From Haematococcus lacustris (taxonomy: Eukaryota; Chlorophyta; Chlorophyceae; Chlamydomonadales; Haematococcaceae): a stretch of DNA of 64,000 nucleotides. The stretch lies in the NCBI GenBank assembly GCA_030144725.1, contig JASKMD010000002.1, positions 1,385,611-1,449,610 on the forward strand, in the 5' to 3' direction. The notes under the pieces were generated by a model that worked only from the letters and a program-made list of their open reading frames with translations, did no database searches and was not told where the DNA came from. Positions 4,981 to 48,500 of the stretch are shown here, piece by piece. Position 1 is the first letter of the stretch, and each line of letters opens with the position of its first letter. A program made the translations under genes and the position numbers.

Positions 4981-5065
4981 ACTACTTAGTTCAGCAAGGG
5001 CCTCGTACTAAACGTTTTAAGGATAGGGCTGCTAACGTTTTTAAACGCGTGAAAACGCCACTACG

Positions 5066-19734: not shown

Positions 19735-21218
19735 CCGATTGCTGCGGCAATCGAGGACCGGTTGCTGCGCCCAGAATGGACCTGTCAGCCTGGGTACCTG
19801 CCCTGCTGAAGCCATGAACAGAGCAAAGATGTCGGCTGGGGAAGGGGCTGTCATATGAAGCCCCTGCAGTGGGACTCTCCCACATAGGCAGGGGCATAGC
19901 TGAGACGCGTGATTATGTGTTGGACCCAGACACACAGATTGGGGTGGGCATCGACCCCGGCGTCACCCAGGCAGTCAGCGCAGCCTCTCCGGGATCCGGC
20001 AACAGGCCAGCTGCTGGCAGACCAGCTCCCCCGGTGGAAGCTGACCAAGGGAAGCCCGGTGGAAGCATGCCAGCGGCCTGAACAATGCCCGCCGTGACAC
20101 TGAGCGGTGGCTCGCACCAATCAAGCCCCACCTCCAGCACCTGGCAGCAGCAAGCTCAGCCGGCACCTCCCTGGAGGCCAACCTGAAGCACATCACTGTC
20201 ACGCTGGCCACTTGGGATGCGGTGTGGGAGGTGTACCTGGGCTCCAAGTGGGCACGGCAGCGGCTGCAGCTGTACAGAGCCCAGGACTGGGCGCTGAAGC
20301 ACTTCTTCAAGAAGGTGAGGGTGGGTGGGAAGGAGGGAGGGTAAGGGACTGGGGAGTGGTGGGTTAGGCATAACGTGAAAAGGTAGTTGACTGTGCCATG
20401 CCTAACCTGGTGCCACCATATCAGCCACCATATCAGCCTGTGTGTGCCTTGTGTGCATGGCTGCAGTTGGAGGAGGACATGGCGGAGGTGTCCATGAAGC
20501 GCCACAATCGTGCCAAGCAGCTAGTGGTGTTCTTGGCGCAGTTGGCATAGGCACAGCGGGAGGGTGGGGTGCTGATGCGGTGCTGCGTGCACGCTGCAAG
20601 GTGGTGTGCAGGCCCAGGGGCGCAGGCCAGCGGCGGGGCAGGGTGGTGCTAGTGGATGAGCACCGCACCACCCGGGTCAGCTCATCAATGAATGGGAAGC
20701 AACCATGTGAGGAGGAGCAGGTTAAACAGCGCCTGGTGCGCCCAGCATGGAGCCAGCAGCGTGACCAGCCTGTGCGGGGCCTGATGTGGTGCCCGGTAGC
20801 GCCCCCCCGCAAGCCCCCACAGGCCCCACGCAGCAGCCAGGAAGCCACACAGCCAGCAGCCTCAGAGCCAGGGCCCAGCACTCTCCCGCCAGCCAAGCGC
20901 AGCAAGCGCACCGAGGCTGAGACGGCAGCTGAGCCCACCCAGCCCACCAAGGGCACAGGCAAGGGCACAGGCAAGGGCAAGGCTGCCAAAGCCAAGCCAG
21001 CACCACAGCCAGGCAGGTGACTGGACAGGGACTGCAATGCAGCGCTGAACATGCAGCGCATTGGGGAGAGCAGGTGGCGTCCACTGGAGCTATGCTACTG
21101 GCCAAACCAGGGAGCTCTGCCAGCCAAGGGCAAGGAGTTTCCTGGCCTGGGCTACAAGCGGCTGCAAGACAAGCCACCCAAGGTCCTGGAGCAGCAGCAG
21201 CCTGCTGTGGCACAGTAG
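19735..21218 (+). pseudogene. Fanzor/TnpB-like RuvC nuclease, copy A (long, broken)
   Basis: All three RuvC motifs are present. RuvC-I is GVGIDPGVTQAVSAAS (Asp codon 19953-19955), RuvC-II is VVLVDEHRTTRVS (Glu 20658-20660), and RuvC-III is LDRDCNAALNMQRIGESRW (Asp 21030-21032). Between I and II is a helical block (LEANLKHITVTLATWDAVWE) and a spliceosomal intron (20315-20466). Between II and III is MWCP and an insert of about 80 residues rich in Lys, Ala and Pro. Damage: stops and frame changes before RuvC-I, a shift near 20540, and a Trp codon turned to TGA at 21018. The C-terminus reads LGYKRLQDKPPK and ends at 21218. In the Fanzor/TnpB family this is an RNA-guided DNA endonuclease; activity here is unlikely. 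The N-terminus is not recognisable. Confidence 0.8.
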
Positions 21219-21370
21219 TGTGCCAGTTTTTGTTGAGCTGTCATCAGCTTACATTAGCGCATGTTTTGTCATGCCAACTCTACACAATAACCCTCGTGGT
21301 CAGGCACTAGTGTAGGTGGTAGGCGCCTCATGTGCCATGTGCACTGGGTTTACTCCACACAGCCCAATAA
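21219..21370 (+). ncRNA. Conserved 3' tail of copy A (candidate guide-RNA/right end)
   Basis: The sequence after the stop codon is shared with the 3'-only copy at 32648-32790. Common words include catcag, gtcatgcc, tatag/ataac, ggcaatggtg/ggcactagtg, gtaggcgcctcatg versus gtagaaggcgcccatg, ccatgtg and tccacaca. In TnpB/Fanzor systems the guide RNA overlaps or follows the ORF 3' end, which is why this tail is listed. Function is inferred; transcription is not shown. Confidence 0.35.
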
Positions 21371-22120
21371 CACCATTTGAGTCGGGCCACTATTGCCCGC
21401 TAGTATATTCCCGCTAGTGGCTGCTAGTGGGTACTACTGATCCGGCTCTAATGGAGGCCCTGGTGAGGGACAAGGGGGCTGTCATATGAAGCAACCCTAA
21501 GCCAAACAGGCACCGAGACACCTGGTATCTTTTGGAGTGTTCAACAGTTAGGCGTCCCCGGAGTGTAGGGTCATCTGACATACCTGGTTAAATGTGCCCA
21601 GGCGCCGCGTTCCTTGCTGGGGCAGGGCAGCTGAGCATCCCAGCGGATGGTGGCCTATGGCGGTGCTGGCCATCAGTGCACATATGAATGTGGCAACTGA
21701 TGCTTGGAAACTCCTTACCAAGCGCCAGTGCATCAAGCAATGCTCTGGAGCAATACGCTGGATACGCTTAATACGCTGGTATGCATGATAGCGACAGCAC
21801 CAATGACGTTAACTAACTTATATAACGTTCCAAATGTACAGCAGTATGAATGACGTAGCGCACCAAGCCAATGCACTCATTGCATGCAGAACGTTTGAGA
21901 GACAGAAGTGCAACAGCAAGCAAGCGTGGCAATGCACTGGAGTAACAGCATCAACGACATTTATGCACTGATAGAACAGGCGATATGTGCGGGTGATGCG
22001 GGTTGCGTAAAGCACAGCAGTTTCTCTGATGCAGCGCATCTTATGGTTTCCTAGGGTGTAGCACATGTGAATGATAGGAGTGCGATTGCAAGCACAGCCC
22101 TCTCACTTCCACCTCCATTG
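21371..22120. other. Mostly empty; one short nuclease-element fragment
   Basis: Bases 21476-21493 repeat ggctgtcatatgaagc, also found at 19847-19862 upstream of RuvC-I in copy A. A small piece of another element copy therefore lies here. The rest has no supported gene. Confidence 0.4.
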
Positions 22121-25100
22121 CTAGGGAGTCCTGTCAGCTGGTCCAGTCCTGGATAGCATAGCTCGTACACTGGCATGAGAGTGGGTGGCTTTCAAATCTG
22201 GATTTTCTCGTAGAAAGCTGTCTGCCTCATGCATGGATTTCACGGCTTCCATCACTGCTACACCATCACTGCCTGCCTTGGTGGACGCGTCCCATCCACC
22301 GTCACCGCCTTCCACCTTGCCGCTGCCAGGTGCAGCTACTCGTCCACTACGGCAACTCATGGCGCTCCTGCATCCAGTGGGTGCCCAGCCCAGGCCATGC
22401 ACTAGGTCCAGCACCCTCCCATGCCTGCTGCCTGCTGTGCCCTGGGTTTGCACTGAGGCTGAAAGGGTGCATAGCGGCCGCCAGGCAGCAGTGGCTCAAG
22501 CTGCATGAGGTGCATGGAGCAGGGGCGTGTGTGGAGCGCATGGATGGCAGGGAGTCAGGTTCAGCCCAGGCTGTGCACACTGCCTGAGGCCCGGCCCTGC
22601 AGCACGAGGCAACCTAGCCCTGCAGCGCCCACTCATGTGCCCTATGACAGCAGGCTGATTAGCGACGGCAGAGGGAGCTGGGACTGCAGCGAGCGCCGCG
22701 GTTGGCCCATGTCGGCACCAGGTGCCAAGAGGTCACACCTGTGAGTACACCTCATTAGCGCACCTTGCCTCAGACATGCCGGCCACGGACTGGCAGTCAT
22801 CTGCTCCCCTTGCTGCCAGGTGGCTGGCCTGAGCAGCCCGCGTCCGTGACACATGCCTCATGGCACGCACGAAGCTGCTGCGCCAAGCTTTGTCGTCCCC
22901 CTTGTTTGTCTCCTCCACTTCTTCCAGAGCCTGGGGATGGTGAGGCAGCCATGGCTGGCCCAGCAACCTGGTGTGCCCCTCTCAAGACAGGCCAGCCCTC
23001 CTCGTGCCTGGGGCCTTGTTAGGGTAGTGCATACCTGCAGCGTGTCTTTGAGCTCCAGGTCGTCCAGTGTCGACATGAACCTGTCAAAGTCCAAGCTGCC
23101 AGCAAAGGCCAGCAGCTCTTCCTCCTCGGCATCAGCAGCATGCACCACCTCCTTCTCTGTCAAGGCCCATGCAGGCTTTGTGCTCACACAGCCTCTGCTG
23201 CCCGCCTTCCCACTGCTCTGCATGCACGTGATCACACACACGATAGATGGTGATGAACGCACTCGTCTGTTACAGCATTCGCAGCAGCATTGCTTGGCCA
23301 CCCTCCTACCTTGACTTTGTGCCCAGTCCCAGCTGGTAATGGCGCCCTGCCGCCTGTGTCTGCCCCTGTATGCTGCGTTGCCATGGCCTCCCCAGCTGCA
23401 GTGACTGAGACTGGGGTTGTCTTCCTTGACAGGGAGTGTGTAGCATTACATGCAGGAGGTGACGTGTCATGGGCTGGCTGCACATCTGGGGCTGGCATGA
23501 ACTCGCTCTGCTGACTGCCTTCAGGTACTTCGCCGTGTGTGTGCTCCTTTGCATGAGGTCCAGTGGAGCCAGCATGACGCATGGCTGGACGCCAGAAGCT
23601 GACATCGCCACCTGCGCAGGCGCGCTTCGGTCAGCGCTGCTTGCACCAGTGGCAGCAGCCCCCTAACCCCCCGCCCCAGGGCAGTCAAAGCGTGGCAGGC
23701 GCAGGGATTGTCTCTGAACCCTCACCTGCCCAGCCCCCATCACCCTCACCCCAATGGCGAGGGTTGGAATTCACTTCATGAAGCTGGATGGCAAAGTGCT
23801 CCATGGGATGTGCATGCAGCTGGGGCTAACCAAGCAGACACTCGCAGCCTGATCCAGGGAGCCAGCCCACAAGGCCCCATGAAGCAGGTGGGTCAGCGCA
23901 AGCGAGCTGGCCAGCCGGGGGCATGAGCTTGCAAGGATGGTGGAGATATACAGTGTCAGCGTGTGTGTGCACTACGCACACCCCCTCCCCAGCACCCCTG
24001 CCCCCACCCCCCAGCAGCTGGCCCCTCCAGGCAGCAATGCCCTAGCGGCAGCAGCAGCAGCTGCAGGTGCAGCAGCAGGTACCCCTCAAGAAACCTCCCC
24101 CACATCGGCAAGGGCCTAGCTGAAAAGTAATGTTCGATACAGCCATGCAAACTGGGGTGGGCATTGATCCCGGCGCCATCCAGGCAGTCAGTGCAGCTTC
24201 AGGGTTATGGGATGGGGCGCCAGGCAAGCTAGTGAGAGACAGGCCGGCCCAGTGGAAGCTGATCATGGAAGGTGCGGCAGGCCACTGGCCTGAACAATGC
24301 CCGCCGCAACACTGTACAACAGCCAGCATCTGGCTGCCGCCGGTACAGCTGGCTCTACCTTGGAGGCCAACCTGCAGCACATCAGCGTCACACTGGCCAC
24401 CTGGGACAGGGTGTGGGAGGTCTGCCTGGATCCCAAGTGGCCATGGCAGCAGCTCAGGTTGTACGAGGCCCAGGGCCGGAGCAATCTTTCAGGATGGTGA
24501 GGTGGGAGATGTATTGGAAGTTTGTGGGATCGCATGAAGTGAACGAGTAGCTGACTGACGTGCCATGTCAAACCTGGTACCACCATGTGTACCCCTGTAT
24601 GCATGTCTGCAGCTGAGGTGTCATGGGAGCGTCACAGTGTCAAAGGAGGTTCCTGGAGTTTTCAAGGAACTGTGTCAAGCAATTGTGTCAAAGATGTATG
24701 TCAAGAAACTTCTCTGGAGTTCTCAAGGAAATCTTTTCTGGAGCAGCTGCATTGGCACCTGGGGTTGGGAGCGCCACAGCTATGTCAAGCAACTGGTGGT
24801 CCTCAGTGGTACAACTGGCATCGGCACCCGGGGTGGGGGCTGAGCCAGTGCTGCAGGCCTGTCGCAAGGTGGTGGAGAGGCCCAGGGGTACAGACCAGCG
24901 GCGGGCTAGGGTGATGCTTGAGGATGAGCTTCGCACCAGCCAGGTCAGCGCAGCAGTACATAGCCGACAGGAGTGAGAGATGGACCCAGACTATGAGCAG
25001 CCCACCAGGCCTGGTGTCTAGAAGCCCCCAGCAGGGCAGGTGGACCACCAGCTGCTGTGCCCAGCGTGGAGCCAGCAGACCAGCCAGTCCAGGGCCTGAT

Positions 25101-25950
25101 GTGGTGCTCAGTAGTGGCCCTGCACCTGGCTAAGTAGCCTCCACATAGCCAGGCAACCACTCTGCCAGCAGCCTCGAAGCCTGGGGCCGGTGCTTCCCCG
25201 CCAGCCAGCACTAAGCGCACCAAGGCTGACCAGCCTGCCGAGCCCACACAGCCCACCAAGGGCAAAGGCAAAAGCAAGGCTGACAAACACAGCCCCCAGC
25301 ACCGCAGCCAGGCAGGTGGCTAGACAGGGACTGCAATGAAGCGTTGAACATGCAGCGCATTGAGGAGAGCAGGTGGCGCCCGCTGGTGCTGTGCTCACAG
25401 ACTGACCTGTCTGAGCTGCCTGCCAAGGGCATAGCTTGAGCTGGGCTACAAGCGGCAGCGAGACTGTCCACTCAAGGCCCAACAGCAGCAGCAGCAGCAG
25501 CCTGAGGCACAGGAATGCTGTCTTGGTCTGAGCTGTTCTTAGCTTCTACGCATGCCACGCCGGTGTCATGTCATGTGAGTGTATGTTACATCACTACCTG
25601 CCAGGATGGTAGACCGAAGCTTTGCATTGAAATGGCTGACTGATTCTGCCTTCTTCGCCTCCTCTGTTTGCTGCTTCTCCAGCTGTGCTTGTGAGGCATG
25701 TCGCCGCTTCTCCACCTCCCTCAACCATAACTTGTGTATGTAGTTGACGTTGGCAGGGGCCAGCTCATCCAATGCAAAATCAGCCAGGTCCTGCATCATA
25801 ACTCACATAAGATGCATGCTGGGGGGCTTCAAGCAGTGCAAAGGATACCTGGCGAGTGATGGTGTAGCCGAGAGGAGTCAGCGACTCCGTAGCAGAAGAA
25901 GGCTTGAATGGTGAGCTAGCTGAAATGCCACCTGGCCGATCCGCCAACAT
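22121..25950 (-). CDS. Uncharacterised 388-residue coiled-coil protein, six exons
   Basis: Exons on minus: 25950-25849, 25790-25598, 23611-23310, 23217-23035, 22930-22739, 22315-22121. All junctions keep phase and the sum is 389 codons with the stop. The N-terminus reads MLADRPGGISASSPFKPSS, then a charged helix (LWLREVEKRRHASQAQLEKQ), a Ser/Thr/Pro linker, the acidic block EEEELLAFAGSLDFDRFMST with LDDLELKDTLQ, and the tail FLRENPDLKATHSHASVRAM. No enzyme domain, signal peptide or membrane segment. The short motifs feel like those of uncharacterised proteins of ciliated organisms, but that is a weak impression. Intron 2 (2.0 kb) houses nuclease copy B antisense. It is divergent from KIFBP with 236 bp between start codons. 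Confidence 0.75.
23757..25530 (+). pseudogene. Fanzor/TnpB-like RuvC nuclease, copy B (long, broken)
   Basis: It matches copy A along most of its length. Near 23770-23860 is IHFMKLDGKVLHGMCMQLGL, probably N-terminal. RuvC-I is GVGIDPGAIQAVSAASG (Asp 24166-24168), RuvC-II is VMLEDELRTSQVSA (Glu 24926-24928), and RuvC-III is WLDRDCNEALNMQRIEESRW (second Asp 25329-25331). The position of the intron before the RuvC-II block is shared with copy A (acceptor text ...gcatgtctgcag near 24612). Several frame changes, a stop soon after RuvC-II and a TGA at 25437 disable it. It lies wholly inside intron 2 of the orphan gene, on the opposite strand. Confidence 0.75.
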
Positions 25951-26186
25951 TACTCCCTATGTAACGACATCGCATCAGCATTGATATCTGCTTGGCACAA
26001 AGCACGGGGTCCTGACGGGCCGCGCACTTTTATAGGGTCGGACATGTCCCTCGCGCTCTGTTGTCGCCGGTGTGCGAATAGAGACTAAGCAAGGCCGCTG
26101 TTTAGGCTGCACACTGATGTTCGGCGAACATTCGAAGGCTCACACGAAGTAGTCCTATATTTGTTGCCACACTGCAATATTTAGAC
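25951..26186. promoter_or_regulatory. Short divergent promoter between the orphan gene and KIFBP
   Basis: Only 236 bp separate the two start codons, which point away from each other, so both promoters and 5' leaders must lie here or overlap. The sequence holds an AT-rich 'cacttttatagg' near 26026 and 'tgcaatatttag' just before the KIFBP start. No experimentally known element is recognised. Confidence 0.5.
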
Positions 26187-29100
26187 ATGGCAGTGCTAGC
26201 TGATCCCGATGGCTTGGATGACGAAGTCGATGAGCGCCAGCCCTATGCTCACAAGTACAAGGCGGCAGATGCACTACTGCAAGCGATGGAAGGCAGCGAC
26301 GATAGTCTTTCCAGAGCCATGCTTAACGCAAAACGCGGTCTCCTTCTACTTGAGACAGATTTGCTGAAGGATGGAGAGGACTGTGTGCAAGCAGCTCTGC
26401 CTGTGCTCAGCTCACATGTTGGTAGAGCTTGCCCATGCGCCAACAACAAGGACCCAGCCTCCAGCACAGCTCTACAGGACCAGGCTTGCAGCCAGCAGGA
26501 GACAGGGGCACTGTGCAAGCTGCAGCAAGATTGCTACAACTCGCTGGCAGTTCTGTGGTGCTCAAGGGGTGACTACGCAGCGGCTCTGTCATGGCTGAAG
26601 GAGGCGGAGGAGGTGTACAAGCAGCACTTGAGTTGCAACCCTGCAACGGCGAGCAATACAAGCACTGACATTCCCAGAGCTGACACCATGCTAGCGACCC
26701 ACATGCAGTCCCTTGAAGCAGGCTACACTTCCACCCTCTTCTACCTAGCCCAGGTCCATGGCCATGCTGACAACAGAGATCAGTCCGCCCGCTATTGTGC
26801 CGCCACTCTCCAGCGCCAGCTGGCAGCCGGTGAGTGTGACAAGCTCAGCTGCTGGGCAGCAGCCAGCCGTGAGGCTTGACCTATCCCGTGTGCACTGGCT
26901 GTGTGCCGGTCTTTGCTTACAGGCTCATTTGACGTTTCAGAGTGGCTACAGAACTGTGTACAACTGGCCAACTACTACTCCAGCACCCATGCCTTTGCCC
27001 TGGCTGAGCACTGCATTGCGGCAGCCCACTGTGTGCAGCTGCGCCAGCAACGTGTCAGCCACACAGGCCCACCCAGTGGCATGGAGCAGGTTGCCCCAGA
27101 GGTGGAGGCCAACCTGCACCTGGCAGCTGCCAAGCTGGCCATGGCCCGCCTGGCTGCCTCCCACGCTGCCTACATTGCCGGGCAGCCGCCCCTGGATTTG
27201 CCATACCCAGACCCCAGCCACTTCCCATCGCTCCTGTGCTTCCCGTCACTGGCAAATGACATGCCCAGCCTCACTGCCCTGAGCTGGGGCGTGGCTGCCT
27301 TGGCCCAGGACTTTGCCGCTGCTCGCACCATCTTCAATGCCGGGATGGTGGAGTACAACCTGGCCCTGGCATACTACCAGCTAGATGGCTGGGTGACGGA
27401 GCATGTGCATACCTTGATGGACGTCTCCAACATGTTCAGGTCAGGACAGGACAAGCCAGGGTACGCATGTGGAGGTGGCCTAGTGGCTGCAAGGCTGCGG
27501 CTACTGCAGTTGCTAGTGTGATCAAAATAGTCTGTGCTGCTCTTCTCCGCTCTTGCATGCCTGCTGCTGCTGCCACCGCTGTTGCCACTGCGGCTTCAAC
27601 ACCACGTCTTTCTCAGCCTGTACTGTGACATCAGAAACACTGACCCAGTGGGATCTGACAGAGGCCAGCACACAAAACAGCAGTCACGTCGCCACCTGTG
27701 CCGCTGTGCACCTTCCCTGTGTACCCTGGGCCTGCTGTGTGCAGGCTGCCCTGGACCTGCTGTGTGCAGGCTGCCCTGGACCTGCTGTGTGCAGGCTGCC
27801 CTGGACCTGCTGTGTGCAGGCTGCCCTGGACCTGCTGTGTGCACCTGCTGCACCTGCCCTGGACCTGCTGTGTGCAGGCTGCCCTGGACCTGCTGTGTGC
27901 ACCTGCTGCACCTGCCCTGGACCTGCTGTGTGCAGGCTTCTGGCAGCGTTTGAGCGCGAGCCACACCGGCAGGCAGCCATGCACAAGCAGCGGGTGCAGC
28001 GGCTGCAGCCCGTGTCTGGCTCAGCACTGAACAAGGAGCACTACCTGGGGCTAGTGCGCTCCATTGAGCTGGAGCTGGGCGCAGCCTGGCGGGATGCGAT
28101 GGACGCGGTGGCCCAGGGCAAGGACAGCAAGCAGGTGTGTTAAACGGGACCCACAGCAGCCCAACCCACAGCAACCCAACCTAGGCACCAGCAGTGGTAG
28201 GGAACAGCACACAGAGCACCCGGTAGACATTGCATGGTGCCATGAGTCCTTTGAACATGGGCGGGTTGCAGGCTCACAGGGGCAAAGCGCTGCATGCACA
28301 GTTGGCGTGTACACAGCGCTGCACATAATGCACATGCAGCACAGAGCTGAGCACAGCAGCTTGCACATGTTGCCTGCCTGTGTTTGTGTGTGGCCATGTG
28401 ATGTCCAGTGTGTCAGCTGGCTCAGGGGCTCTGTCACTGCTGCTGCTCCTGTGACTTACGCATGCTCCAGCACATGGATGCTTCCCCACCACACATGTGT
28501 GACGATGCAGCAGGGGCCAAGGCATGAGTGCTGCCCTGCCTATCACAGTCATCAAAGGCTGCACTGGCTGCGGCCACACACTACACGGCATACCTGGACT
28601 CTTACAAGCACTGCGCCACAGCCTCTCTCCCAGCACGCATTGATGAGGACAACGAGGTCATCTTCCTCACAGCCTCCTTCAACTTGGGGCGAGTCATGCA
28701 CCGCTGCTCCTTGGGCAACAACACTCCCCAGAGGTGAGGTGTCAGTGGCACCAGGTTAGGAAAGGGCGTCTTGGGGATGCAACCGTGCACAAGGCATGCT
28801 TACTAATGGCTGTGCAAAGTGAGGACGTTGTGATGGGCGACGTGCGCCATGTCTCTTGTGGTGCAAGGCCACCAGCAATGTTACTTGCTTTTTCGTACCA
28901 CTGCTTGAAACTCTCGCATCACTGTTGATCACAGTACTGCAAGGAAGCCTACCATGCCTTGAAACTCCATGAAGTGTATTGTCCAGCTAGGTATGTCCTG
29001 GTAGATGCCTTACAACTGTGAGTCATGTGTCCCGTGCAGGGAGTTGGACATCATGGTGGGCGCAGTGCGGCATCTGCAGTGGGTGGTGGAGTACGTGGCC

Positions 29101-29250: not shown

Positions 29251-29485
29251 ACCATGTCATACCTGGAGAGCCGGGACTGCAGTACAGCAAAGGAAGAGAT
29301 GGTGTGAGCGAAACATGTGTTGCAGTGCTGCTGATGTTGATAGCAACGTTATGCCCATCAGCCTTGCAATGTTAACATATACCCCCATGCAAATCTAAAC
29401 AGCCTTGACCTTGCCACCTCGATACCATGCTACGAGAGGGTGTTCGATAGCTTGCCGCCGCACTGGCACAAGCATCGGCGTTGAC

Positions 29486-32400
29486 ATGCACATCGTGCGG
29501 GACGTACCCGACAACCTGGTCGCGGCGGCCCTAGCCATCCTTAACGAACCGGACCCTTGGTGCAAAGCCCAACTTTCACAGGCGACCGTGCTAGCATGGC
29601 GGGCTGGGAGCCTGCCCATCCGCCCCCAAACGCAGTTACAAGGCGTACAACCTGGTTCCGCTGGCCAAACAAGTCCAGGCAACTCTACAATTCAGCAGTT
29701 TTGCCACTTCACGGTCCCAGAGAGGCCAGCTAGGTGTGATGACAGGGTAGGCAGGCGTGATGCAAGCAGGGGTCTGTGCTGGTGGCAGTTTAGCACATGC
29801 ATGCATATGCGATGTGCGTGGTGTGCCCTACTGCAGGTACGGCTAGTGCCACCTGGACAGGTGCCCAAGCTGGGCAAAGGCGGCAGCCTGGCGAGTCGTC
29901 AAGCCATTGTGCACAGTCTCTGCCATATTGAGAGCTGGGCGGTAGACCTGTCATGGGACATCATCGCACGCTTTGGAGCTCAGCCTGACCTGGCTCCATT
30001 CTTGCCACATGCTTTCTTCGAAGACTTTGTGTCAGGTAAGGTATCTTCCCTGCACTCGTAATGTCTCGCCAGCATAGACTGGGTGCACTGACCACAGCCT
30101 GCCTGTGACAGCCACTGAGGCAGGCACCCCTGCATCCCCCACCCTTGCGTGATGTGAACATTCCCTGGGTCAGGAGTCCTCGTCCTGCAATGCCACTGTG
30201 CTACACATGCAAATGAGAGAGCATGCCTCTAGTGCCGGGTGCTGGGTGCGCATCCTGGCTGCGACAGTTGCTGATGACGAGTGCCGCCACTTCCTGCTGC
30301 TGGAGGCGCGGCTGCGGGCGCTGGGGTCGCACTACGGGGCGCTGGCAGCACATGACGGGTGCGGCCCAGACCCCACCCAGCCTGCAGCCTGCACCCAGTC
30401 TGCACCCTGCCAGTGGCCCAGGCGCATATGTGCTCGCAAGCGGGACCTGACTCGCCTTCCTCATGTTCATAGCAACACAGTTTCTAGTACCATGCTCACC
30501 AGAAACATTCTCATTGCTTGGAAGGCTGCCCTGGTAAGTTGGGCTGTTCATGGACAGTGGGCTTGTCTGACCTTCATGGACTACTTCCTGTTTGTACATC
30601 ACACACGTCTGAAAGCCAGCCGCATAGGAGGAACCAACAGCGTGACCAGCCAGTCCCAGGCCTGATGTGGTGCCCAGCAGTGGCTCCACGCCAGTCCCCC
30701 CTGGCCCTCGCAGCCAGGCAGCCACCAGACCCGAAGCTTGGGTGCAGTGCTCCCCCGCCAGCCAAGTGCGTTACAGGCAGCCAAGCCCACCCAGCCCAGC
30801 AAGGGCAGAGGCAGGGCCAAGGCTGCCAAACCCAGCCCCACAGGATCATAGTCAGGCAGGGACAGGGACTGCAATGCAGCGATGAATAGCGCATAGGGGA
30901 GAGCAGCTTGCGCACACTGGAGCTGTGCTCAAGGACTGACATGCCAGAGGTGCCCACCTAGGGCATTTGCTGAGCTGGGATATAAGCCGCAGCGAGACTG
31001 CCCACCCAAGGCCCAGCAGCAGCAGCAGCAGCAGCCTGAGGCACAGTAATGCTGCCTGGTTTTGAGCTGTTCTTAGCCTTTGCATCTGCATTTTGCCTTT
31101 GCATGGTACCTGTTGCCTGCTGGGCTGATGTAGGAGGTGCTGCTATCACTGCCTGTCATGCTGTGACTGCAATGTGCGCGGGGTCATTGCCCTCAGGCTT
31201 GGTGATATCAGTGTGTGAGCCTGCTGCCCACTGTTGGCTTGCTTCCTGCATGGTCTTTGCCTGTTGCCCGTTGCGGCCCTGTTGCCTGCTGAGCACCACG
31301 CACCCCTTCACTGCAACGCCGAGCAGGCTGTGGGAGAGCGCCGCCCGCACGGCTCACAAGCTGCCGGCCCGACTGGCCGTGGAGCATTGCGTGCACGAGG
31401 CGCGTGGGCTGGATCGGTTGCCAGCCACCATCGACAACTTCCGACGCAATGGAGACGAGGAAACGGGTGCGGCTCAACATGTCAGTGGGCTCTGGCAGGC
31501 TCTGTGCCTCGTTGGAAGCCCTGCAGCGTGCAGACCTACAGACTCAATCCCACCCAACACCTTGTTCCTGTGTTTTGGGCATGGGCCAGCAGCTGCAGGG
31601 CAGGGGTGGTCCGTCACCAAACATGCTGGTGGGCCTAGGCAGGCAGGCTCTGTACACCATTGTAAAGCCATTTACACCATTTACACCATTTACACCATTT
31701 ACACCATTTACACCATTGTACCCAGCAGACCAACAGCCACGCTGCAGCCCAGCACCTACAATGCAGGTCAAGTGCATTGAAGTGAGAGCCAGCAGCCACT
31801 GTGCGGGGGTTAGCAGCACAAGGGCAGGCAGGTGGGGCACCACCCCTGCAGTGTGAAGGTCTGCTCACAGGGGCACCACCCCTGCAGTGCAAAGGTCTGC
31901 AGCCTTAGGGTGCATTGCACTGCTCACAGGGGCGCTGCATCGCCCTAGCAGCTGGCTTCCGCCAGCTGCCCTGCAGGGCGATGAGTGTGCAGGGCGGTGT
32001 GCTTGCCTGCCCTGCAGCGGTGTTGCTGGAGGCGGTCATCTACCCCGAGGAGGTCACCCACTGCGCAGCGGGGGTGCGCTGGCTGAAGCATCTGTTCCAG
32101 GCTGCTCGGGACATGAAGCCAGACCCGTCACACCTCCAAGACAGCGAGGGCGTGGGCACGCAGGTGGGTGGGCCAGATCCCTCCAGGCCTGTTCAACCTC
32201 AGTGGCTGGCAGCAGTATGACGTGCACAAGGCGCTGCTGCCCAATGCAAGTGCACGTCCATGTACATACTGTATCGGAGCATTCTCAGGCTGGCTGACAA
32301 GTGCCCTAGGTCGCTGACAACGAATGCTTGGCAACATGCGTGTGTGCGTGTGTATGTGCAGGGCTTTCAGAACCATGAGTGGATAGCGGAGGCATGCGCG

Positions 32401-32532
32401 GCGGTAACAGTTGAGGCGTGGTTTCACCAGCTAGTCCGTGCCAACTTCCATGGCTCGTTGCGGCCGCCCTTCAATGAGGCTGCACGGGCAAAAGCTGGAT
32501 TTGCAAAGAGCTGGTATGAGCCTTTGAGTTGA
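29486..32532 (+). CDS. DUF455 ferritin-like protein
   Basis: Six exons join in phase: 29486-29746, 29837-30035, 30268-30358, 31327-31466, 32018-32163, 32362-32532, for 335 residues. The start is the ATG reading MHIVRDVPDN, after which LVAAALAILNEPDPWCKAQL matches the family N-terminus. The four-helix metal-site pattern is visible: CHIESWAVDLSWD (Glu about 119), DECRHFLLLEARL (Glu 158, His 161), HEARGLDRL (about 208) and YPEEVTHCAAG (about 242-245). DUF455 (PF04305) is a ferritin-like superfamily branch of unknown substrate. Nuclease-element piece C sits in intron 3 and piece D starts just after the stop. A decamer array is in intron 4. Confidence 0.88.
30610..31090 (+). mobile_element. Nuclease-element 3'-end fragment, copy C
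   Basis: It begins near NQQRDQPVPGLMWCP (copy A has SQQRDQPVRGLMWCP), keeps the Lys/Ala/Pro-type insert and RuvC-III RDCNAAMN (second Asp 30867-30869). It then runs through several stops to a Gln-rich end and a tail (tgagctgttcttagc) shared with copy B. The 5' two thirds are absent. It lies in intron 3 of the DUF455 gene, same strand. Confidence 0.72.
31664..31718 (+). repeat. Decamer tandem repeat (tttacaccat), about 5 units
   Basis: Perfect tttacaccat units, in DUF455 intron 4, flanked by caccattgta on both sides. Confidence 0.95.
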
Positions 32533-32569
32533 TGCACATGTGACATGTCTGCATTGCTTGACACGGGCC

Positions 32570-32790
32570 TCCATGAGCCGCTACAAGCGGCTGCAAGACC
32601 GCCCACCCAAGGCCCAGCAGCGACAGCAGCCTGCTGAGGCACACTAGTGTTGCCTTACTTGCATCAGTACATGCATGTCATGCCGATTCTATGCATGCCA
32701 AATATAGGCTATAGCCCTGGGCCAGGCAATGGTGAAAGTAGAAGGCGCCCATGCCATGTGAGTGCAAGGTATTCCACACAAATGAAACAC
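32570..32790 (+). mobile_element. Nuclease-element 3'-end fragment, copy D
   Basis: Starts within the last codons (RYKRLQDRPPKAQQ, then QQPAEAH and a stop at 32647) and continues about 140 bp through the conserved tail. No RuvC motif is kept. It begins about 40 bp after the DUF455 stop codon, so it may supply 3' UTR or polyadenylation sequence to that gene. Confidence 0.7.
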
Positions 32791-37100: not shown

Positions 37101-39904
37101 GGCGATGAGGACAGGGGTGGCAAAGTAGGGTGGCAATGTCAATGGCAACGGTAGCAGCCGCGACAGCCTATGAACAGCTTCTGGTTCCAACAGCTTGGGT
37201 GACTGGGCAAGCAACAGATGCAGCCCACACGTCAAGACACACCACTGCCAACAGCTGCAGCCTGGCACCAGTGGATTCCCTAACAATGTGTGGAGGACAT
37301 GGCAACCTTTGTAAAGTGATCAGGTGTATGGGAAGTTTGTGGGTTTCACCTGTGCAACACGTCTCCTGTTGACATAAGGAGCATGACGTGGCCCTAACGT
37401 TGCAACTAACGTTCATGAAAGCAATGTCAGAGCACTCTCCACCACTCATATTACAGGCCATGGGGGTAAGGAACAAGGCCAGGGTCACCTATGCCATGCA
37501 TACCATCTCGAGTGTAAATGCCACAGTACTCTCGCTCCAGAAGGATGTTGGACCACCGCGCTTGCACATGGCTGTTACTGAGTTACACTTCAGGTTACAC
37601 CTCACTCCATTGCCCTACTACCACCCTACCTGCAGTGCGGGAAGGTAGGAGGTCGCCCCCCCTTGCAGCTGCAGCAGCAGAGGCACGCCCGGGTTAAGGT
37701 CGTTCAACGCCACCTGGCTGAATAGCACGGACAGGGCCCAGCCGCGTACGTGCTCCTGCACCAGCACACAGCCCTGGCCGCCATACTCACCTGGACATGG
37801 GCCGGGCTCCTGCACCAGGCCCTCCACCTGGTCGTCGCCCAGTGGCCCACCCTGCTGCTGCAGCCCCTGCTGCTGCTGCCCCTGCTGCTGCTGCCCCTGC
37901 TGCTGCTGCTGCTGCTGCTGCCCCTGCTGCCCCTGCTGCTGCTGCTGAGGCGCTGGCAGTGTATGAGCTGCGGGTGCTGGGGCGGTGCTTGTCTGCTGGC
38001 CATCCGCCTCCGGTGCTGCCGCTGGTCCTGATGCTAGGCGGGGCGAGGAGGGTGCCCGCAGTGCACTGCTGCCCTGGAGGCGCTCAGGCTCAGCCGCCAC
38101 AGAGGAGGCCGCCAGTGTCATTGGGGCAGTCAGGGCCGGCGGCCTGGCCCCAGGCAGCAGCCTGCGGTCTGAGACTCGCATGGGGCCCTGCCCCTGCCCC
38201 TCCATCAGGCCCTCAGCCAGGCCCCCCAAGGAGTAGTGAGCGGGCAGCAAGTGGGAGGCCTGGGGGGTTGGCAGTTGGGAGGTTGGCAGTTGGGGGGTTG
38301 GCAGTTGGGGGGTTGGCAGTTGGGGGGTTGGCAGTTGGGGGGTTGGCAGTTGGGGGGTTGGCAGTTGGGGAGTCTGGACCTGGCGCTGTGGCACCTGCTG
38401 GGGGCTGGGTTGGGACGCCTCCTCCTCCCCCCCGCTGTCATCTACGCCTCCACCTCCCTGCAGCCCCCTTGCAAGGCCTGCCTGCTTGACTTGGCCTTGT
38501 TGTGAGCCAAGCATGATGGACAGCAGCCCAGGCCCTCGGCCAGGGGCCCCCAGACCCTGGGTGTGAGAGGTGTGAGAGGTACGGGCAGCAGAGCCACGGT
38601 CTGTGGCATGGGAGCTGGCTGCCAGCGAGTTGCGCCAAGCCAGCAGGCTGACCTCCCATGCGGCGCCCTCCACACTGCCTCCACCCAGGCTGTCTGGCAG
38701 TTGAGTTGGTTGGGGCCTGGGGAGCAGGGTGCTGAGGTCTGTGGCTGGCAGCTCCATGGCGGCGTGCCCCAGGGGTGGCCCCTGGACTGACCCCAGCATC
38801 CAGCTGCTGCGCCCCTCCCCCTGGCCATCATCACTGGTGTGATAGGGGCGGGGGCCAGGGGCTGGGCCCAGGCCAGGGCAGGCGCTCGAACTTGCTGCAG
38901 GTGTTGGGTAGGAGGGATGAGGTGGTGGGTGCGCTGCTGCTGCGGGGCCTGCTGCCACCTCCATGGCCTCGACTCCATGGTCTCTTGACAGGCCGTCTGA
39001 TGGGTTGAGGGTCGACTGGTTGCCACAGCAGGGAGTAGGCAAAGCTGGTGGTGGGGTGCAGTGAGGGGGGACCGAGGAGGCCGGCTGGCAGGCTGCGGTG
39101 AGAGGGCCAGGCAGGGGGGTCTCTGCTCCCAGCTGCTGTGGGGTCAGCTGTACCAGGGCTGAGGGGGGCCCCTCCGGTGAGGTGGGGGGGAGGGGTGAGG
39201 CCTGGGGTGCTGTAGGTAGGGCTGGGGGCAGCTCCCGGGTCGTGCCTGGAGGCTGTGCGGGTGGGACTGCGGAGGGTGGGAGAGGGAGGGGAGGGGCGGC
39301 TGGCATGCGGGGCGGGGTCAGCGCGACTGGCCTGTCGTTCCCGGTAGCCTGAACAAGCCTAGACACCTCTAGCTGAGGCAGGTCGCATTCTAACCCAGTG
39401 GAAGCTGGCTGGGAACCAAGGGGGAGGCAAGGTGTGTCGGTGGTAGAGGTGTTGGCCGGCCCCTCACACCCGGTGCTCATGATAGTCGGGTCATGGGTGT
39501 TGCTGGCAGGGCCAGGCCTCACCACTACCCTGCCGGTGGCAGTGGTGGGGGGAGCGCAGGGCACAGGGGCAGGGGGGCAGTGCGGGGTGCCCATGGAGGG
39601 CAGTGTCAGAGGCCCTGGTGGGAGGGCAGTCAGGCTGCAACCGCCAAGGCTCAGCAGCAGGCTGCGCACCAGGCTGGGGTGCGGGGCCGCCCGGGCGAGC
39701 AGCAGAGCGGCTGCCATGCGGGCTGCAGGGCAGGCGGCTGCGGGTGTGGGGCTGAGGAGTGTGTGGGAGGTCGCGGTTGGGGGTGGCTGCTGAGGTGGTG
39801 GGGCGGTGAGGAGGAAGGAGGGGTGAGCGGCAGAACTGCTGGAAGTAGTCAGCCAGGCCTCAGAGGGTGGGGTGGCAGGGGTGGCTGTGGACTGCTCGCA
39901 TGGA
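34122..39904 (-). CDS. Protein-kinase-like protein with giant low-complexity inserts
   Basis: Exons on minus: 39904-37630, 37065-35765, 34689-34534, 34239-34122; the 5' end is not found. A split kinase fold is readable. An N-lobe-like block (AALLLARAAPHPSLVRSLLL) comes first, then about 600 residues of Pro/Ser/Gln text. Next are the hinge CVLVQEHVRGWALSVLF, helix E and catalytic loop (LLAHLHGLGLSHGDLNAGSV), about 350 low-complexity residues, APELFSGGAPTPAADMYALG, VYHGKRAFQHL, and the final helix RPTASQVVTILSQLLLE. Splice phase is kept at MW|E and at R|PT. I see no DFG triplet, so it may be a pseudokinase. It resembles TKL-type kinases of chlorophytes. Confidence 0.65.
35034..35659. mobile_element. 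hAT-type non-autonomous element, 626 bp, with 8-bp target duplication
   Basis: The terminal inverted repeats share AGTGCTGGGCGATT, and the right end reads cAGTGCTGGGCGATT in reverse complement. GTGAGGAC is duplicated at 35026-35033 and 35660-35667. An 8-bp duplication and CAG-type ends fit the hAT superfamily. No transposase is present. The unfilled paralogous site is at about 39917-39935. AT-rich subterminal repeats of gtaataat/attattac type flank a three-unit 50-bp tandem block. Confidence 0.85.
35353..35500. repeat. 50-bp tandem repeat inside the hAT-type element, three units
   Basis: Units start at 35353, 35403 and 35452 with gctacagcccagcc and contain ttgcatgctgaccca. Such internal arrays are common in non-autonomous elements. 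Confidence 0.9.
37858..37946 (-). repeat. CAG-type array coding poly-Gln in the kinase exon
   Basis: On plus it is ctgctgctgcccctg text. On the coding minus strand it gives Gln runs broken by Gly, near the hinge of the kinase. Confidence 0.85.
38268..38372 (-). repeat. 15-bp minisatellite coding PQLPT repeats
   Basis: About seven 15-bp units (ggggttggcagttgg on plus) encode tandem PQLPT on minus, with one TSQLP variant. The frame is kept through the array, which supports that this exon is translated. Confidence 0.92.
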
Positions 39905-40009
39905 GAACCTGTGCATGGTGAGGAGCGGCTCAGTACCTGGCTAGGCAGTACTGGCTGTGACGAAGTGAGTCTGAACGACTGCCAGGGCCCTAGACGGGAG
40001 GCTGGGACT

Positions 40010-40100: not shown

Positions 40101-41548
40101 GCCAGTGGACGTGACCGGAGACCACTGTGAGCTTGGTGGTCCGATGGCGTGTGTTGATGGGTGGTACGGAAACGGTGCACTGCAGGTCATGTGATGTGAA
40201 GGGAGCCTGCAAGGTGACACCAGCAATAGTTATGTGCACCCAATGTGCTGCCTGGTCCTGTGAAGCACGCATGTGCAGAGTCGAAATGGGAAGTGCATCG
40301 CACGCCCACCTCCAGCACAAGCCAAGAATGGCCCACTACCCGGTGCTCGCCGCTCCGCCGCGGAGGTGGCATATGTCGTATTGCCCTAAGCAGGGGTATG
40401 GGGTGTGGAGCGGCCGAAGGAGGAGCCGCTTGTGATGTGGCCGATGCAGGATTATCGACCGGTGCCTGGTCCGAACCTTGCACATTGCCAAACTCTGCTG
40501 ACGTCCTGCAAGGATTGGCGTCAAGGGCATCAAGGGCGTCAAGGGCATCAATGGCGTAAGTATGGGAAAGACTGGAATTGCGGGCGCTGTGTGCCAGCAT
40601 AAGGATCGTGCAGCAAAGCAACCTGCTTGTAAATGGACCGTGCAGAATGTCCGTTTCCGGCTCCTGCTCAGATGTCCATCCAGCATCGCGGAAACATACA
40701 TTCCCCATCCTTACAAGCCCGCTCGTACAGACGCTGACGTTGTTGCGCCGGCACTACACTTGTCACATGTAGGCCATTTTGATACACACGGTTATGCAGG
40801 AAGGTGCTGGTCATGGCATTTCTTAGTAAGAAGGGAAACCAGGGTGTAAAGGTTGTGAGAGGAGCGCTACTGAGTGCAATGTCAAGATGTGGTACGAGAC
40901 TGAGTGCGTGCATGTGAGGTCTGTTTTTGACATGCCTGTGAGGGCTGTAGCGTGCCGAATATTGTGCGCAGTCATGTCTATCGTTGTGCCAAGTAGGTGA
41001 TGTTACACCATATATGCTAGTTCCATGGCAGCAACCACGGCAGTTTAGCATGCTAACGTGTTATTGTGCAAGGGTGAAACCTTACAGAGTCATGCATCCT
41101 TGAGTGACACTGAAGATACACATATGAAATAACTTTTGTGCACTCACATGCGCCTCTATCTGTATCGCCCCCCTATCGTGCGCCTGAACCTATGAGTGCA
41201 AAGCACTGAAACCAGAGCACTATCCACTCCCACACACAGCACCGCTGTTGGGATGTCCTCTAGCAACCCTGCTGCCCTGTGCAACACCTCACTTTACAGA
41301 GCCCTCACTTTACAGAGCCAGGGTCTGAGTGCCAGCCTACAGCCAGGCCCTCAGTCTTAGGTCGGACCAGGCCAGGCGGCGTCCAGCTGGGGCCGCGGCC
41401 CTCAGCCAGGCGCTTGGGGAGCCCTGCTGCTCTACCCTGCCCTCCGCCCCAGGCACATTGCATATGGCCAGTGCTAAGCGTGTGGGGAGGCCTGTCCCAC
41501 TGTCCTGCCCGCGGCCCATGTGGCTGCCAGCAAGAGGCGGTACGGCCC
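40101..41548. other. Intergenic, unassigned frames
   Basis: Minus frames at 40187-41051 are long enough to notice and include a 9-bp repeat near 40515-40555 coding DALDALDALDA. I recognise no domain and no good exon borders. The region may hold missing 5' exons of the kinase gene and the 3' flank of VMP1. Confidence 0.4.
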
Positions 41549-44537
41549 TTATTGCGCCTTGCCCGACTTCAGCTGCTGCAGTCTCGAGCGCTGCTCCATG
41601 GCTGCTTCATCCTCCGCCGCCTTCGCCCCCTGAGCAGCAGGCAGTGAAACAGGGTGTTGAGGCAGGGAGCTGGAGGAGGCCCGAGTGGGGCGGTGCATGG
41701 CAACATGGCCAGCCCATGACAAGGGCTACAGCTCCACAAGGCAGGTGAGAGCAGGCTGGCTGACTGTGACGCTGGCAGGCCGACAGGCAAGGGATCACAA
41801 AGGGCAGTGTAAGGTAACCGAGCAGTGCACCAAGTGGCAGTGACACACTGGCGACAGTGCGTGTGAGGGAAGGGGAGGGGCCTGATGGCGGGCACCTGGG
41901 CTAGGGTGTTGACGCAGGACACGGCGAATGTGCCCACTAGCACGAAGAGCAGCAGGCTCCACACCTCCGCGATGGTGTCGGGCACTGCAAGCAGGTGGCA
42001 GGGGGCAGGCTTCCTTGGGGCATCACCCGTGCATCATTAGGGGAGGGGGAGGGGGAGGGGGAGGGGGAGGGGGAGGGGGAGGGGGAGGGGGAGGGGGAGG
42101 GGGAGGGGGAGGGGGAGGGGGAGGGGGAGGGGGAGGGGGAGGGGGAGGGGGAGGGGGAGGGGGAGGGGGAGGGGGAGGGGGAGGGGGAGGGGGAGGGGGA
42201 GGGGGAGGGGGAGGGGGAGGGGGAGGGGGAGGGGGAGGGGGAGGGGAGGGGGAGGGGGAGGGAGGGGGGGAAGGGGAGGGGGGGGGAGGGGGAGGGGGAA
42301 GCGAATTCATATTGTCTTGCAGTGAGTCTAAGAAAAGCAGTGGGTGTAAGTGCCGGGTGACAGAGCACAAGTCCAAAAGACCAGTGCAGGGGGGTGGGGA
42401 GACTTGGCAAGCATAGTCGCCACCGTGAGGAGCTGCAACATGGATGATGCTACACACACCACTCCCTTTACACATCTCTGCCCTGCGTTCGCCCTCAGCC
42501 TACCCTGCTCAGTAGCCCCACAGCCTACCTGCCACTCTTGCCCACTGGGACAGCTGCTGAGGCTGCTGAACACCATCCCACAGCCGCTGCCACCACCAGC
42601 GCTGCTCCAGCTGCTGCTCCGCTGCCTTGGCCAGCACCTTGGCCTGCAAGGACCCCCAGCAGCGCCTAGGGGTTAAGGCAGAGAGCCAGAGCTGCACAGA
42701 TGCTTGCCTGAGCTCAGTCACTTCGCCTCACTTCAACCTCATTAAGCCTCATCCAGTTTGTGAGCGTGAGTATGACAGTTGCCAGATCAGGTCCAGGGGC
42801 CAGTCATGATCTAGGCACTACAGCACCCAGGGTGGTCCAGATTAGGCAAGTCTCTGTGAACTGTGTCTCAGTGTAGTGAACCAGGACCATCAGCCCCACC
42901 CCCAGCCCTGACTGCAGCAGTGCCCACCAGGTCGTGCAAGCCACATGGTGCTGCTGTCACTGCAACTGCTCATGTCTGTTGGCATTGGCACAGGGTCCAC
43001 ACGCCTGACAATCAAGGACTGCAGCTAGAGCTGCCAGCACCTCAGTAGAGCCTGCACACCCAGCCCTGCCCCTGCTGCCCAGCCCTGACCCCAAGCCTGG
43101 CCCTTACTCTCCCCCTGGCGTGGGTATCGTGTGTGGGAGGGAAGGGCGCCAAGTGCATGAGGGGGTGCCAGAGACAAACGATAAAACCCTAACTCCTGCT
43201 GTTCACTGCTGGTGGCAATGCCAGGTGGCAGGTGACAGGGGCGCTAGACAGCGGGCAGCAGCTACATCATGAGCCTAGGCCACATTGGATGTGTTCACTG
43301 CTGGTGGCAGCAGCCCTATGTCAGAGGGACCTATGTCACATGAGGTGCGACATAAGACAGCCATCAGCCCTTGCCCCTGCTGCCCTGCCCTACCCCATAC
43401 TGCCCCTGCCGCCCCTGCTGTCCCTGCTGCCCTGCCCTTACCCCTGCTGCCCCAGCTGCCCTACCCCATAGGCAGCAGGCTGCCGCAGGTCTGAGCAGCA
43501 AGGCAGCTGCACCAGGCACCTGGAAGGCCGCAATGGAGCGGTCGATGAACGCCTGCAGCTCTTGTGCTGGGGTGCGTGGCAGGGGCAGGCCAGGGATGCT
43601 GTGCGGCAGCACTGACTCTACCCAGGTCAACAGCACGTCGCGGGTTTGCCGGCGGAACAGGGTGACGAAGAACACACTCTGCAAGGCGGTGGCACAGACG
43701 CAGACATGCCTGCTGTGGCTGGTGTCTCATGCCTGGCTGTCCAGTTGGTGAGGGGCAGGGACATGCACGCCAGCCTCGGGCACAGAGGCCCAGAGGCGGT
43801 GCTTGGAGCATACAGCCTAAGACAATGACTACATTCTGCAGGGCAGGGGCACGGACACAGAGAAGCCCAGACCCAGACAGTGGCACAGGGACAGACAGGC
43901 TGAGCCATGTTGTGCCTGCCTGGCTGCCTGAGGGTCCCCGCAAGACACGGACAGTGGCATAGACACAGACAGTGGCACAGGGACAGACAGGCTGAGCCCG
44001 CATGCAACCAAGACCAAGCATGCCAGTGGCAGTGCCAGTGGCAGTGGCACAGACAGGCCATGCTGGGGTAGGGGTGCAGGTTGCAACATGGTGGGTAGGC
44101 AACGTGGTGGGTGGGTGTCATGACAGGGGTGAAAATGGCAAAGAAGACGGGCAGACGGGGGTGAGGGTGAGGCAGCAGGGGGGATGAGGTGGAGCAGCAG
44201 CATGTGGGACATCAGGATGGGGAGGGCGGGCATGATACCAGTATGGTGTGGGGTCATGACGTAACAGGTACATCGCTGTTAGGGAGGGGCAGTGGGGGCT
44301 TACCCACCCCTGCCTGGCCGCCCTAAACCTCTGCTTAGCCTCAACCTCTGCTGAGCATTGAGGCGTTGGGCTGGTCACTCTGGTCACACTCTGGTCACAC
44401 TCTGGTCATAAACCCGTTTGTGCCACATGACCTGAAGGTCCATAGCCTCAGCGCTAGTGGTTCAGGCCATGCAAACCAACCCTGGCCGGCATCGTCCACA
44501 TTCAGCCTCAGCAACCACCTATAGGTCGTGCCGCTTC

Positions 44538-44570
<33 letters not shown>

Positions 44571-47500: not shown

Positions 47501-48068
47501 AGCTGAAGCGGCACCAGCATGGTGGCAGGGACAGCAGAGCCGCAGCGGTGGCAGTGGCAGTCTGCCAGCACCGTCCTGCAGAGCTGTCTATTCCATTGTG
47601 AACTCTCTAGGATCTGGCAGTGGGATGCAGCACGCACCTCTAAGCCTGTTATGAGTTGTGGATAAAGGTGGGCTCGTTTAGCCCCGAGGTACAGCAGCAG
47701 TGCTGGCAGCAGGAGGTACAGAGTGAAGGGGTGGCGGATGAACCAGGTGAGCCCGCTGTGAGTGCCAGACTTGACAGCTTTGCTGAAGTATGAGAGGGTG
47801 CGTGCCGGGGACCTGAACAAGGTCAGCTGCTGCAGCTCCTGCGCTGCTTGCTGGCGCCACTGCATGGTCCAGTCAGACCCAAGTCAGACCACCACCGAAG
47901 TCACCACACAACGCAGCACGCGTCGCACACAGCGTTGTTAAGCGCTATGTCTCCGAGATCACGCCGCAGCTGGACACAGTCAACACAGCTGCGTCATCTT
48001 CGTGTCGGCACCTTTTTCAGCTCCGCTTGCTCTGCTGTCAGCTCCTCCGATGGTGCAACGCTGGCCAT
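41549..48068 (-). CDS. VMP1 (vacuole membrane protein 1) homologue
   Basis: VMP1 is an ER multispanning lipid scramblase of the DedA/VTT group, needed for autophagy. Eleven exons on minus join in phase to 440 residues: 48068-48012, 47859-47638, 47331-47221, 46659-46528, 45676-45554, 45245-45127, 44725-44611, 43678-43520, 42643-42529, 41984-41896, 41629-41549. Landmarks: start [14 protein letters not shown]; membrane helix [56 protein letters not shown] (the VTT-domain GAxxGE motif); [40 protein letters not shown] with ATLIGK; last helix [19 protein letters not shown] and a charged tail. Exon 4 ends at a GC donor. Introns carry long repeats. Confidence 0.93.
42041..42290. repeat. (GAGGGG)n hexanucleotide array
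   Basis: About 250 bp of gaggggg/gagggg units with irregular 3' units, in VMP1 intron 9. The G-rich strand is the template, so the transcript reads CCCCTC. Confidence 0.97.
44755..44860. repeat. GGCA-type tetranucleotide array
   Basis: Runs of ggcaggca with aagc and tggg interruptions, near a splice acceptor in VMP1 intron 6. Confidence 0.8.
45871..45937 (-). repeat. Pseudo-exon: copy of the end of VMP1 exon 6 in intron 4
   Basis: About 67 bp (cctcagtgccgcctggcagc ... gatgccccagaagcc) repeat 45095-45162 with one or two changes. The copy includes the [11 protein letters not shown] coding end and the donor site, but lacks the rest of the exon and an adjacent acceptor. Confidence 0.85.
46868..46955 (+). 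repeat. Interstitial TTAGGG telomere-like repeats
   Basis: gggttagggttaggg, degenerate tagggtagttagggtagttgggg, then four more perfect ttaggg units, in VMP1 intron 3. Two ccctaa units also occur near 48717. TTAGGG telomeres are known in some Chlamydomonadales. Confidence 0.85.
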
Positions 48069-48284
48069 GGCAGCTGCTCGTTAATAAGAAGAAACGCCCA
48101 CAAAATGTTCGCAGATGCTCGCAGGCATCATCTCTGCAAGCCCAATAACGAGATGCGGCGTCTAGTCATGTGCCATGCGACTCCTTTACGTCAGTTGCCT
48201 TCATGTGCTGGTTCATGGTGTGGGTTGGGTTCACACAAGCAGCCTACCTGAGCACTTGACTTCATGCATCTCCCACACCCATGT

Positions 48285-48500
48285 GCAGGTTCTATGACCG
48301 GGACGTGTCAGCCGCGCTGAACATTCGTCGCTGTGCAGCTGGCCCAGGGCCACGTCCCACTGAGCTGTGCTACTGAACTAAACGCCCAGCCATGCCTAAG
48401 CCAGGCCAGCCAGGCCAGGATTGGGTGGAAATTGCCGACAAGGCCCTGTCGCGCAAGTGGCGTCGCAAGTTGGAGCAGTAGCCAGCTACAACTCAAGACA
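48285..48500 (+). mobile_element. Nuclease-element 3'-end fragment, copy E (different subfamily)
   Basis: After a catgtgcag acceptor (about 48290) the frame reads FYDRDVSAALNIRRCAAGPG and RPTELCY, then a TGA where the family has Trp, then WVEIADKALSRKWRRKLEQ and a stop. The RuvC-III Asp is present. It differs from copies A-D beyond the DRDxxAALN core, so it is a second lineage. It begins about 220 bp upstream of the VMP1 start codon on the opposite strand. Confidence 0.65.

Follow-up and report, generated by a model that had tools for sequence, protein, structure and literature searches.

Broken copies of probable RuvC nuclease genes in the window

The astaxanthin alga Haematococcus lacustris carries, on contig JASKMD010000002.1 of assembly GCA_030144725.1, a 64,000-nucleotide stretch (positions 1,385,611 to 1,449,610 of the forward strand; hereafter the window) that contains five broken copies, A to E, of genes for probable RuvC nucleases. 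We consider it highly probable that these copies are relics of Fanzor1-related transposons whose proteins lack a zinc finger, and that they represent two related families. A preliminary description of the window had proposed a single dispersed Fanzor/TnpB-like family with at least five copies between positions 19735 and 48500. The features of the copies, in window coordinates, are as follows.

19862..21474, plus strand: copy A, a 5'-truncated insertion whose coding region starts at residue 482 of the 889-amino-acid relative P0131
19844..19861, plus strand: 5' copy of a perfect 18-base-pair (bp) direct repeat, the presumed target-site duplication of A
21475..21492, plus strand: 3' copy of the same repeat, also perfect
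19947..19961, plus strand: RuvC-I motif GIDPG of A, by translation
20655..20669, plus strand: RuvC-II motif DEHRT of A, by translation
21027..21053, plus strand: RuvC-III motif RDCNAALNM of A, by translation
20315..20466, plus strand: GT...AG intron of A, across which the reading frame resumes; it aligns with the intron of B
Near 19988, 20052-20063, and 20532-20541, plus strand: three frame changes in A, which also has an in-frame TGA at 21018
21373..21454, plus strand: imperfect hairpin of 82 bases in the 3' flank of A, ending 20 bases ahead of its 3' end
23661..25545, plus strand: copy B, from a stretch ahead of RuvC-I to slightly past the stop codon, with several stops and frame changes
24160, 24923, and 25326, plus strand: motifs GIDPG, DE(H/L)RT, and RDCNxALNM of B, by translation
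24497..24612, plus strand: GT...AG intron of B, the counterpart of that in A
30630..31077, plus strand: copy C, a 3' part with the RuvC-III motif RDCNAAMN at 30864, lying between exon stretches of a DUF455 gene
32541..32780, plus strand: copy D, the last ~24 codons (32573-32644) and 3' flank, without a RuvC motif
48260..48478, plus strand: copy E, the C-terminal end of a second-family gene, with the RuvC-III motif RDVSAALNI at 48299 and an in-frame TGA at 48374

Translation confirmed that A and B carry the three RuvC motifs in the expected order, and that every copy lies on the plus strand and is broken, as had been described. Across all six frames of the window we counted 7 occurrences of the three A/B-type motifs, whereas 100 first-order Markov sequences gave 0.04 on average and never more than 1. 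Nucleotide self-comparison aligns 19875-21250 in A with 24095-25545 in B (63.5% over 1542 columns) and C with B (75% over 467 columns, expect value (E) 5.8e-86), such that C corresponds to the 3' third of A/B. Only the end of A/B is repeated at 32541-32656 in D, where the DNA match runs on to 32780. Relatives were also mapped onto the window with tblastn (low-complexity rows dropped), and the matches listed extended the upstream limit of B to about 23661. By the same method, E (translated from 48290-48478 as FYDRDVSAALNI) is 74% identical over 73 amino acids to the second-family protein P0281 and about 40% identical to the A family.

Judged from these sequence comparisons, A, B, C, and D are decayed copies of one family, and E is a fragment of a related second family. 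The proposal of one family with five copies therefore holds for four of them and fails for E. Likewise, the statement that C, D, and E keep the 3' end of the gene is borne out by the RuvC-III motif of C, whereas D has no RuvC motif and E belongs to the second family. The 3' coding end is retained in every window copy. The proposed start at 19735 lies outside insertion A proper, which is bounded by the 18-bp repeat.

Two genes lie among these copies. C is found in an intron of the DUF455 (PF04305) gene, whose several exon stretches span 29399-32532, and D begins no more than about 50 bp from the stop codon of this gene. A gene for a KIF1-binding protein (TPR_10, KBP_C) occupies 26118-27518 on the plus strand between B and C, and by eye it extends to about 29250.

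Haematococcus relatives and the Fanzor fingerprint

When the joined A protein was used as a query, 1202 proteins among 7996 scored candidates matched at E<=1e-3, a count of gene models and fragments rather than of loci. The best 120 of these are all from H. lacustris (119 QJQ45_ models and one HaLaN), which agrees with the assignment of the DNA to a green alga, and among them identity across the best segments is 62-81%. A second search with the E-type stretch of P0078 returned 145 proteins among 248 candidates, and the 120 listed are again all from H. lacustris. In total, 328 relatives were listed for further analysis, fragments included: 210 from the A search and 118 from the E search. These hypothetical proteins (QJQ45_*, HaLaN_*, V8C86DRAFT_*) belong to the same families but are open gene models, whereas the window copies are broken fragments. 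A chromosome-level assembly of this species has 32,416 genes according to its text or 30,575 according to its table (PMC10400597), and the 1202 matches would be nearly 4% of that number if all belonged to it.

Near-full-length relatives of both families have about 720-890 amino acids: 876-889 for members of the A family (P0128, P0130, P0131) and 717-759 for second-family forms (P0226, P0258, P0277, P0288). Two proteins, P0215 and P0227, are chimeric and have both kinds of C-terminus. Since such chimeras inflate an unselected alignment, the families were compared by using motif-selected cores only, and they proved homologous (hhalign probability 99.9, E 7.5e-34, 390 columns) with ~36% identity in the core. 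We also observed further Pfam domains, among them actin, histone, FKBP, and kinases, in 45 of the 328 relatives, reflecting either insertions into genes or gene-model fusions.

A published fingerprint describes Fanzor proteins by two features: DPG at RuvC-I and, in RuvC-II, a glutamate that precedes the zinc finger by six residues (PMC10711439). Both families carry the DPG and have the glutamate in register, within [D/H]E[H/F]RT[S/T]RVSSA. The word DPG is present in A and B and in 139 of 210 and 57 of 118 relatives from the A and E searches, respectively, the remainder including fragments. The fingerprint, searched as DPG x(100,260) E x6 with serine at the first zinc position, is found in 148 of the 210 and 51 of the 118 proteins, and DPG x(125,275) RT[TS]xxS, taken from the 2013 Fanzor/TnpB motif (PMC3627910), is found in 130 and 47. 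Both families also show the D-X(125,275)-[TS][TS]-X-X ... RD part of the 2013 motif with a D-E-D triad. By comparison, neither the DPG nor the alternative glutamate occurs in any of 51 TnpB controls, which had been selected for a zinc finger and are informative only for their want of these two features. The features of TnpB itself, namely D-hydrophobic-G at RuvC-I and the canonical glutamate ~50 residues ahead of the finger, are absent from both families. Therefore, the Fanzor-like half of the preliminary description gains from these results, and an assignment to TnpB proper is not borne out.

To assess conservation of the triad, every listed protein was aligned pairwise, with no motif filter. 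In the A family, the three residues are retained in 154/162 (D), 204/206 (E), and 193/197 (D) cases, compared to a core mean of 88%; in the second family the counts are 62/68, 90/97, and 109/111, with a core mean of 72%. Invariant columns in two other alignments, A1 and A5, are not counted as evidence, since some of the proteins in them had been chosen for carrying the motifs. Some of the conservation of the triad may be due to recent spread, and gene models favor open frames. The existence of near-full-length models with the triad makes it plausible that an active source once existed, as had been suggested.

A distinguishing feature that the preliminary description overlooked, along with the separate family of E, is the C4 zinc finger, which is missing from both families at the level of their sequences. 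The 2013 motif includes this finger between RuvC-II and RuvC-III (PMC3627910), and the authors of the 2023 fingerprint state that “many” Fanzors have it (PMC10711439). The four zinc positions of the A family are occupied by serine (198/203), valine (197/202), cysteine (170/177), and valine (177/186). In the second family, the corresponding residues are serine (89/96), arginine (45) or tyrosine (30 of 87), cysteine (75) or serine (30 of 108), and serine (105/109). A CxxC between RuvC-II and RuvC-III was found in 1 of 210 A-search and 1 of 118 E-search proteins, and in a separate count a CxxC-like pair was present in 2 of 93 segments. The serine at the first zinc position lies within an identical RVSSA in both families, which suggests that the finger was lost before they diverged. 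These families thus fall outside the 2013 motif, which requires the C4 finger, and inside the 2023 fingerprint, and on this basis we refer to them as Fanzor1-related and zinc-finger-less.

Insertion structure and competing explanations

Copy A has the clearest insertion structure. Its 18-bp direct repeat has just two matches in the window with at most 3 mismatches (mean of 0.07 in shuffles), and inside it are the truncated coding region, the intron, the stop codon, ~260 bp of 3' flank, and the hairpin. The hairpin has a z value of -2.96 as RNA (1 of 200 shuffles equal or better) and -2.66 as DNA (2 of 200), both somewhat flattered by the choice of region after a first fold. Scans of one or two 131-base windows at each of the other copies gave z values of 0.00 for B, -0.82 for C, +1.23 for D, and -1.76 and -0.31 for E. 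A search for target duplications found none above background at B, C, and E, and a 9-bp match at D that is within background. The 5' end, where Helitron2 elements have a 5' hairpin and asymmetric terminal inverted repeats, is missing in all copies. An Rfam scan of 18000-50000 returned no match.

Among the closest described parallels are CRe-1/2/3, Fanzor1 families of Chlamydomonas reinhardtii that are non-autonomous Helitron2 elements (Bao and Jurka 2013). They are often 5'-truncated with an intact 3' end and have target duplications of ~7-19 bp, and their truncation was interpreted as one-ended Helitron2 transposition (PMC3627910). Compared by description, the window copies resemble them in the green algal host, the intron-containing gene, and a 5' truncation that spares the 3' end, and copy A also in its presumed target duplication and in the candidate hairpin near its 3' end. 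The CRe elements differ in that they insert after T-rich tetranucleotides and in that the motif published with them has the C4 finger (PMC3627910).

Several observations weigh against our assignment. GGAA, not a T-rich word, precedes the repeat of A, and the repeat and hairpin were detected at A alone in the stretches tested. The published DPG-E-CxxC-CxxC-D pattern matches 0 of the 328 listed relatives, likewise with its first gap relaxed to 100-260. Profile searches and fold modeling had been proposed as checks on a Fanzor/TnpB identity, and the profile searches were mostly negative. Pfam PF07282 remained sub-threshold wherever a cut-off was shown, although 3 of the 328 relatives carry it as a precomputed annotation; comparisons with TnpB profiles were not significant; and sequence searches of solved structures returned no Fanzor. 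AlphaFold2 models of the two families are poor (mean predicted local distance difference test scores of 44.0 and 47.6), and Foldseek gave no match at E 0.001 or below. For the full-length A-family model, matches to SpuFz have E>=0.12 and are no better than those to unrelated helical proteins.

The fold results are favorable in one respect. For the second-family model, which is of low confidence, the five best PDB chains found by Foldseek are all Fanzor1 (best E 1.3e-3), and a second look ranked PpFz and SpuFz first. The solved Fanzor1 proteins SpuFz1, GtFz1, and PpFz1 (PMC10432273, PMC11423790) are thus the best fold matches of this model and share its D-E-D order, but they have no sequence-level match to the window families, and SpuFz1 has a CCCC zinc finger (PMC10432273).

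Could the motifs be chance occurrences in a repetitive GC-rich algal repeat rather than parts of a RuvC fold? The joined pieces pass the cut-off of no curated family and the models are of low confidence, as this view would predict, but the excess of motifs over the Markov expectation, the conservation of the triad across relatives, and the Fanzor-specific nature of the top fold matches make it very improbable. Derivation from bacterial TnpB elements (IS605/IS607), or contamination, would explain the order of RuvC motifs and the weak resemblance to PF07282. IS609 TnpB (InsQ of Escherichia coli K-12) and its phage-borne relatives share that motif order, but they have the zinc finger and lack both the DPG and the alternative glutamate, as do all 51 TnpB controls for the latter two features. 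Introns are present in the window copies, the H. lacustris relatives sit on megabase contigs, the TnpB profiles are not significant, and none of the 60, 11, and 183 stretches that matched a pattern in the viral and prokaryote collections was confirmed as a relative. We regard this origin as the most improbable of those considered.

The manner of spread is a separate matter. Truncation at the 5' end and target duplications of variable length are usual for target-primed reverse transcription by long interspersed nuclear elements, and such copying of Fanzor transcripts, in place of one-ended DNA transposition, would yield a truncated copy A flanked by its 18-bp repeat. It is nevertheless unlikely, given that A and B retain an alignable intron and that an A-rich tail is not seen ahead of the 3' repeat of A. 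A more serious contender, though one we favor less than its opposite, is that these are Fanzor1-derived repeats moved wholly by the machinery of another element, with a protein that no longer cuts and a finger loss that marks lost or changed function. Consistent with this possibility, both families lack the C4 finger that is common to SpuFz1 and ISDra2 TnpB (PMC10432273), all window copies are dead, and no transposase was identified adjoining them. Retention of D-E-D above the core average, in the unfiltered alignments of both families, points the other way, although open-frame bias or recent spread could mimic constraint.

The window has other repeats. Three long imperfect palindromes of ~180-200 bp each lie at 4233-4410, 4785-4981, and 5219-5419 (80-82% match to their own reverse complements), and a direct repeat of ~200 bp, 91% identical, is found at 34832-35032 and 39721-39924. 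Long simple arrays at 41937-42449 and 56871-57948 have frames of Gly-Glu/Pro-Ser and His-Pro-Thr-Pro/Gly-Val-Gly-Trp. Among the database results, one solved-structure row (Mediator subunit 1, E 0.023) was rejected as a match over a glutamine-rich stretch, and further rows from Pfam, NCBIfam, and PHROG (among them adhesins and GUN4) were discounted because the matches were of low complexity or to single members.

Proposed origin and significance

If the copies are indeed relics of zinc-finger-less, Fanzor1-related transposons, they are dead, 5'-truncated insertions that, when intact, would encode RuvC proteins of the size seen in their near-full-length relatives. An intact source element would spread at the DNA level, as indicated by the intron kept in A and B, with copying from its 3' end. 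As described for the Fanzor1/Helitron2 families of Chlamydomonas, many copies would then be shortened at the 5' end and would duplicate a target site that varies. The presence of the 3' coding end in all window copies is compatible with this model without proving it. The intact protein would be a SpuFz1-like endonuclease guided by RNA from the 3' end of the element, its target-strand-loading region would fold without zinc, and RNA-guided cutting would favor retention or spread of the element. Whether an intact copy has RNA-guided activity is, in our analysis, an evenly balanced question. The conservation of the triad argues for a zinc-free protein that may still cut, and the dead copies are uninformative in this regard.

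Fanzor transposons are reported in “up to hundreds of copies” (PMC10711439). In the green alga Auxenochlorella, the most abundant repeat of the genome, described as uncharacterized, is a Fanzor-coding element (PMC12633428). This provides a precedent, likened by description, for Fanzor abundance in a green alga; the same paper names Haematococcus for its diploidy. Searches of the literature on Fanzor with algae, TnpB, Chlamydomonas, or Volvox, and on Haematococcus with Helitron, returned no title on Haematococcus Fanzors, and survey supplementary tables, which lay outside this search, may contain these proteins unnamed. We tentatively propose, at somewhat less than even confidence, that Haematococcus harbors a lineage of catalytically intact Fanzor1-type nucleases without a zinc finger, in which the loss was fixed before the two families diverged, and which was amplified past “hundreds of copies” to several per cent of annotated gene models.

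For H. lacustris, part of the catalog of “hypothetical proteins” appears to consist of transposon debris, which some gene models fuse to housekeeping domains. Searches that demand CxxC...CxxC would overlook both families, and estimates of the diversity and abundance of green algal Fanzors may therefore be too low. An active protein would mean that a eukaryotic RNA-guided nuclease can do without the zinc finger.

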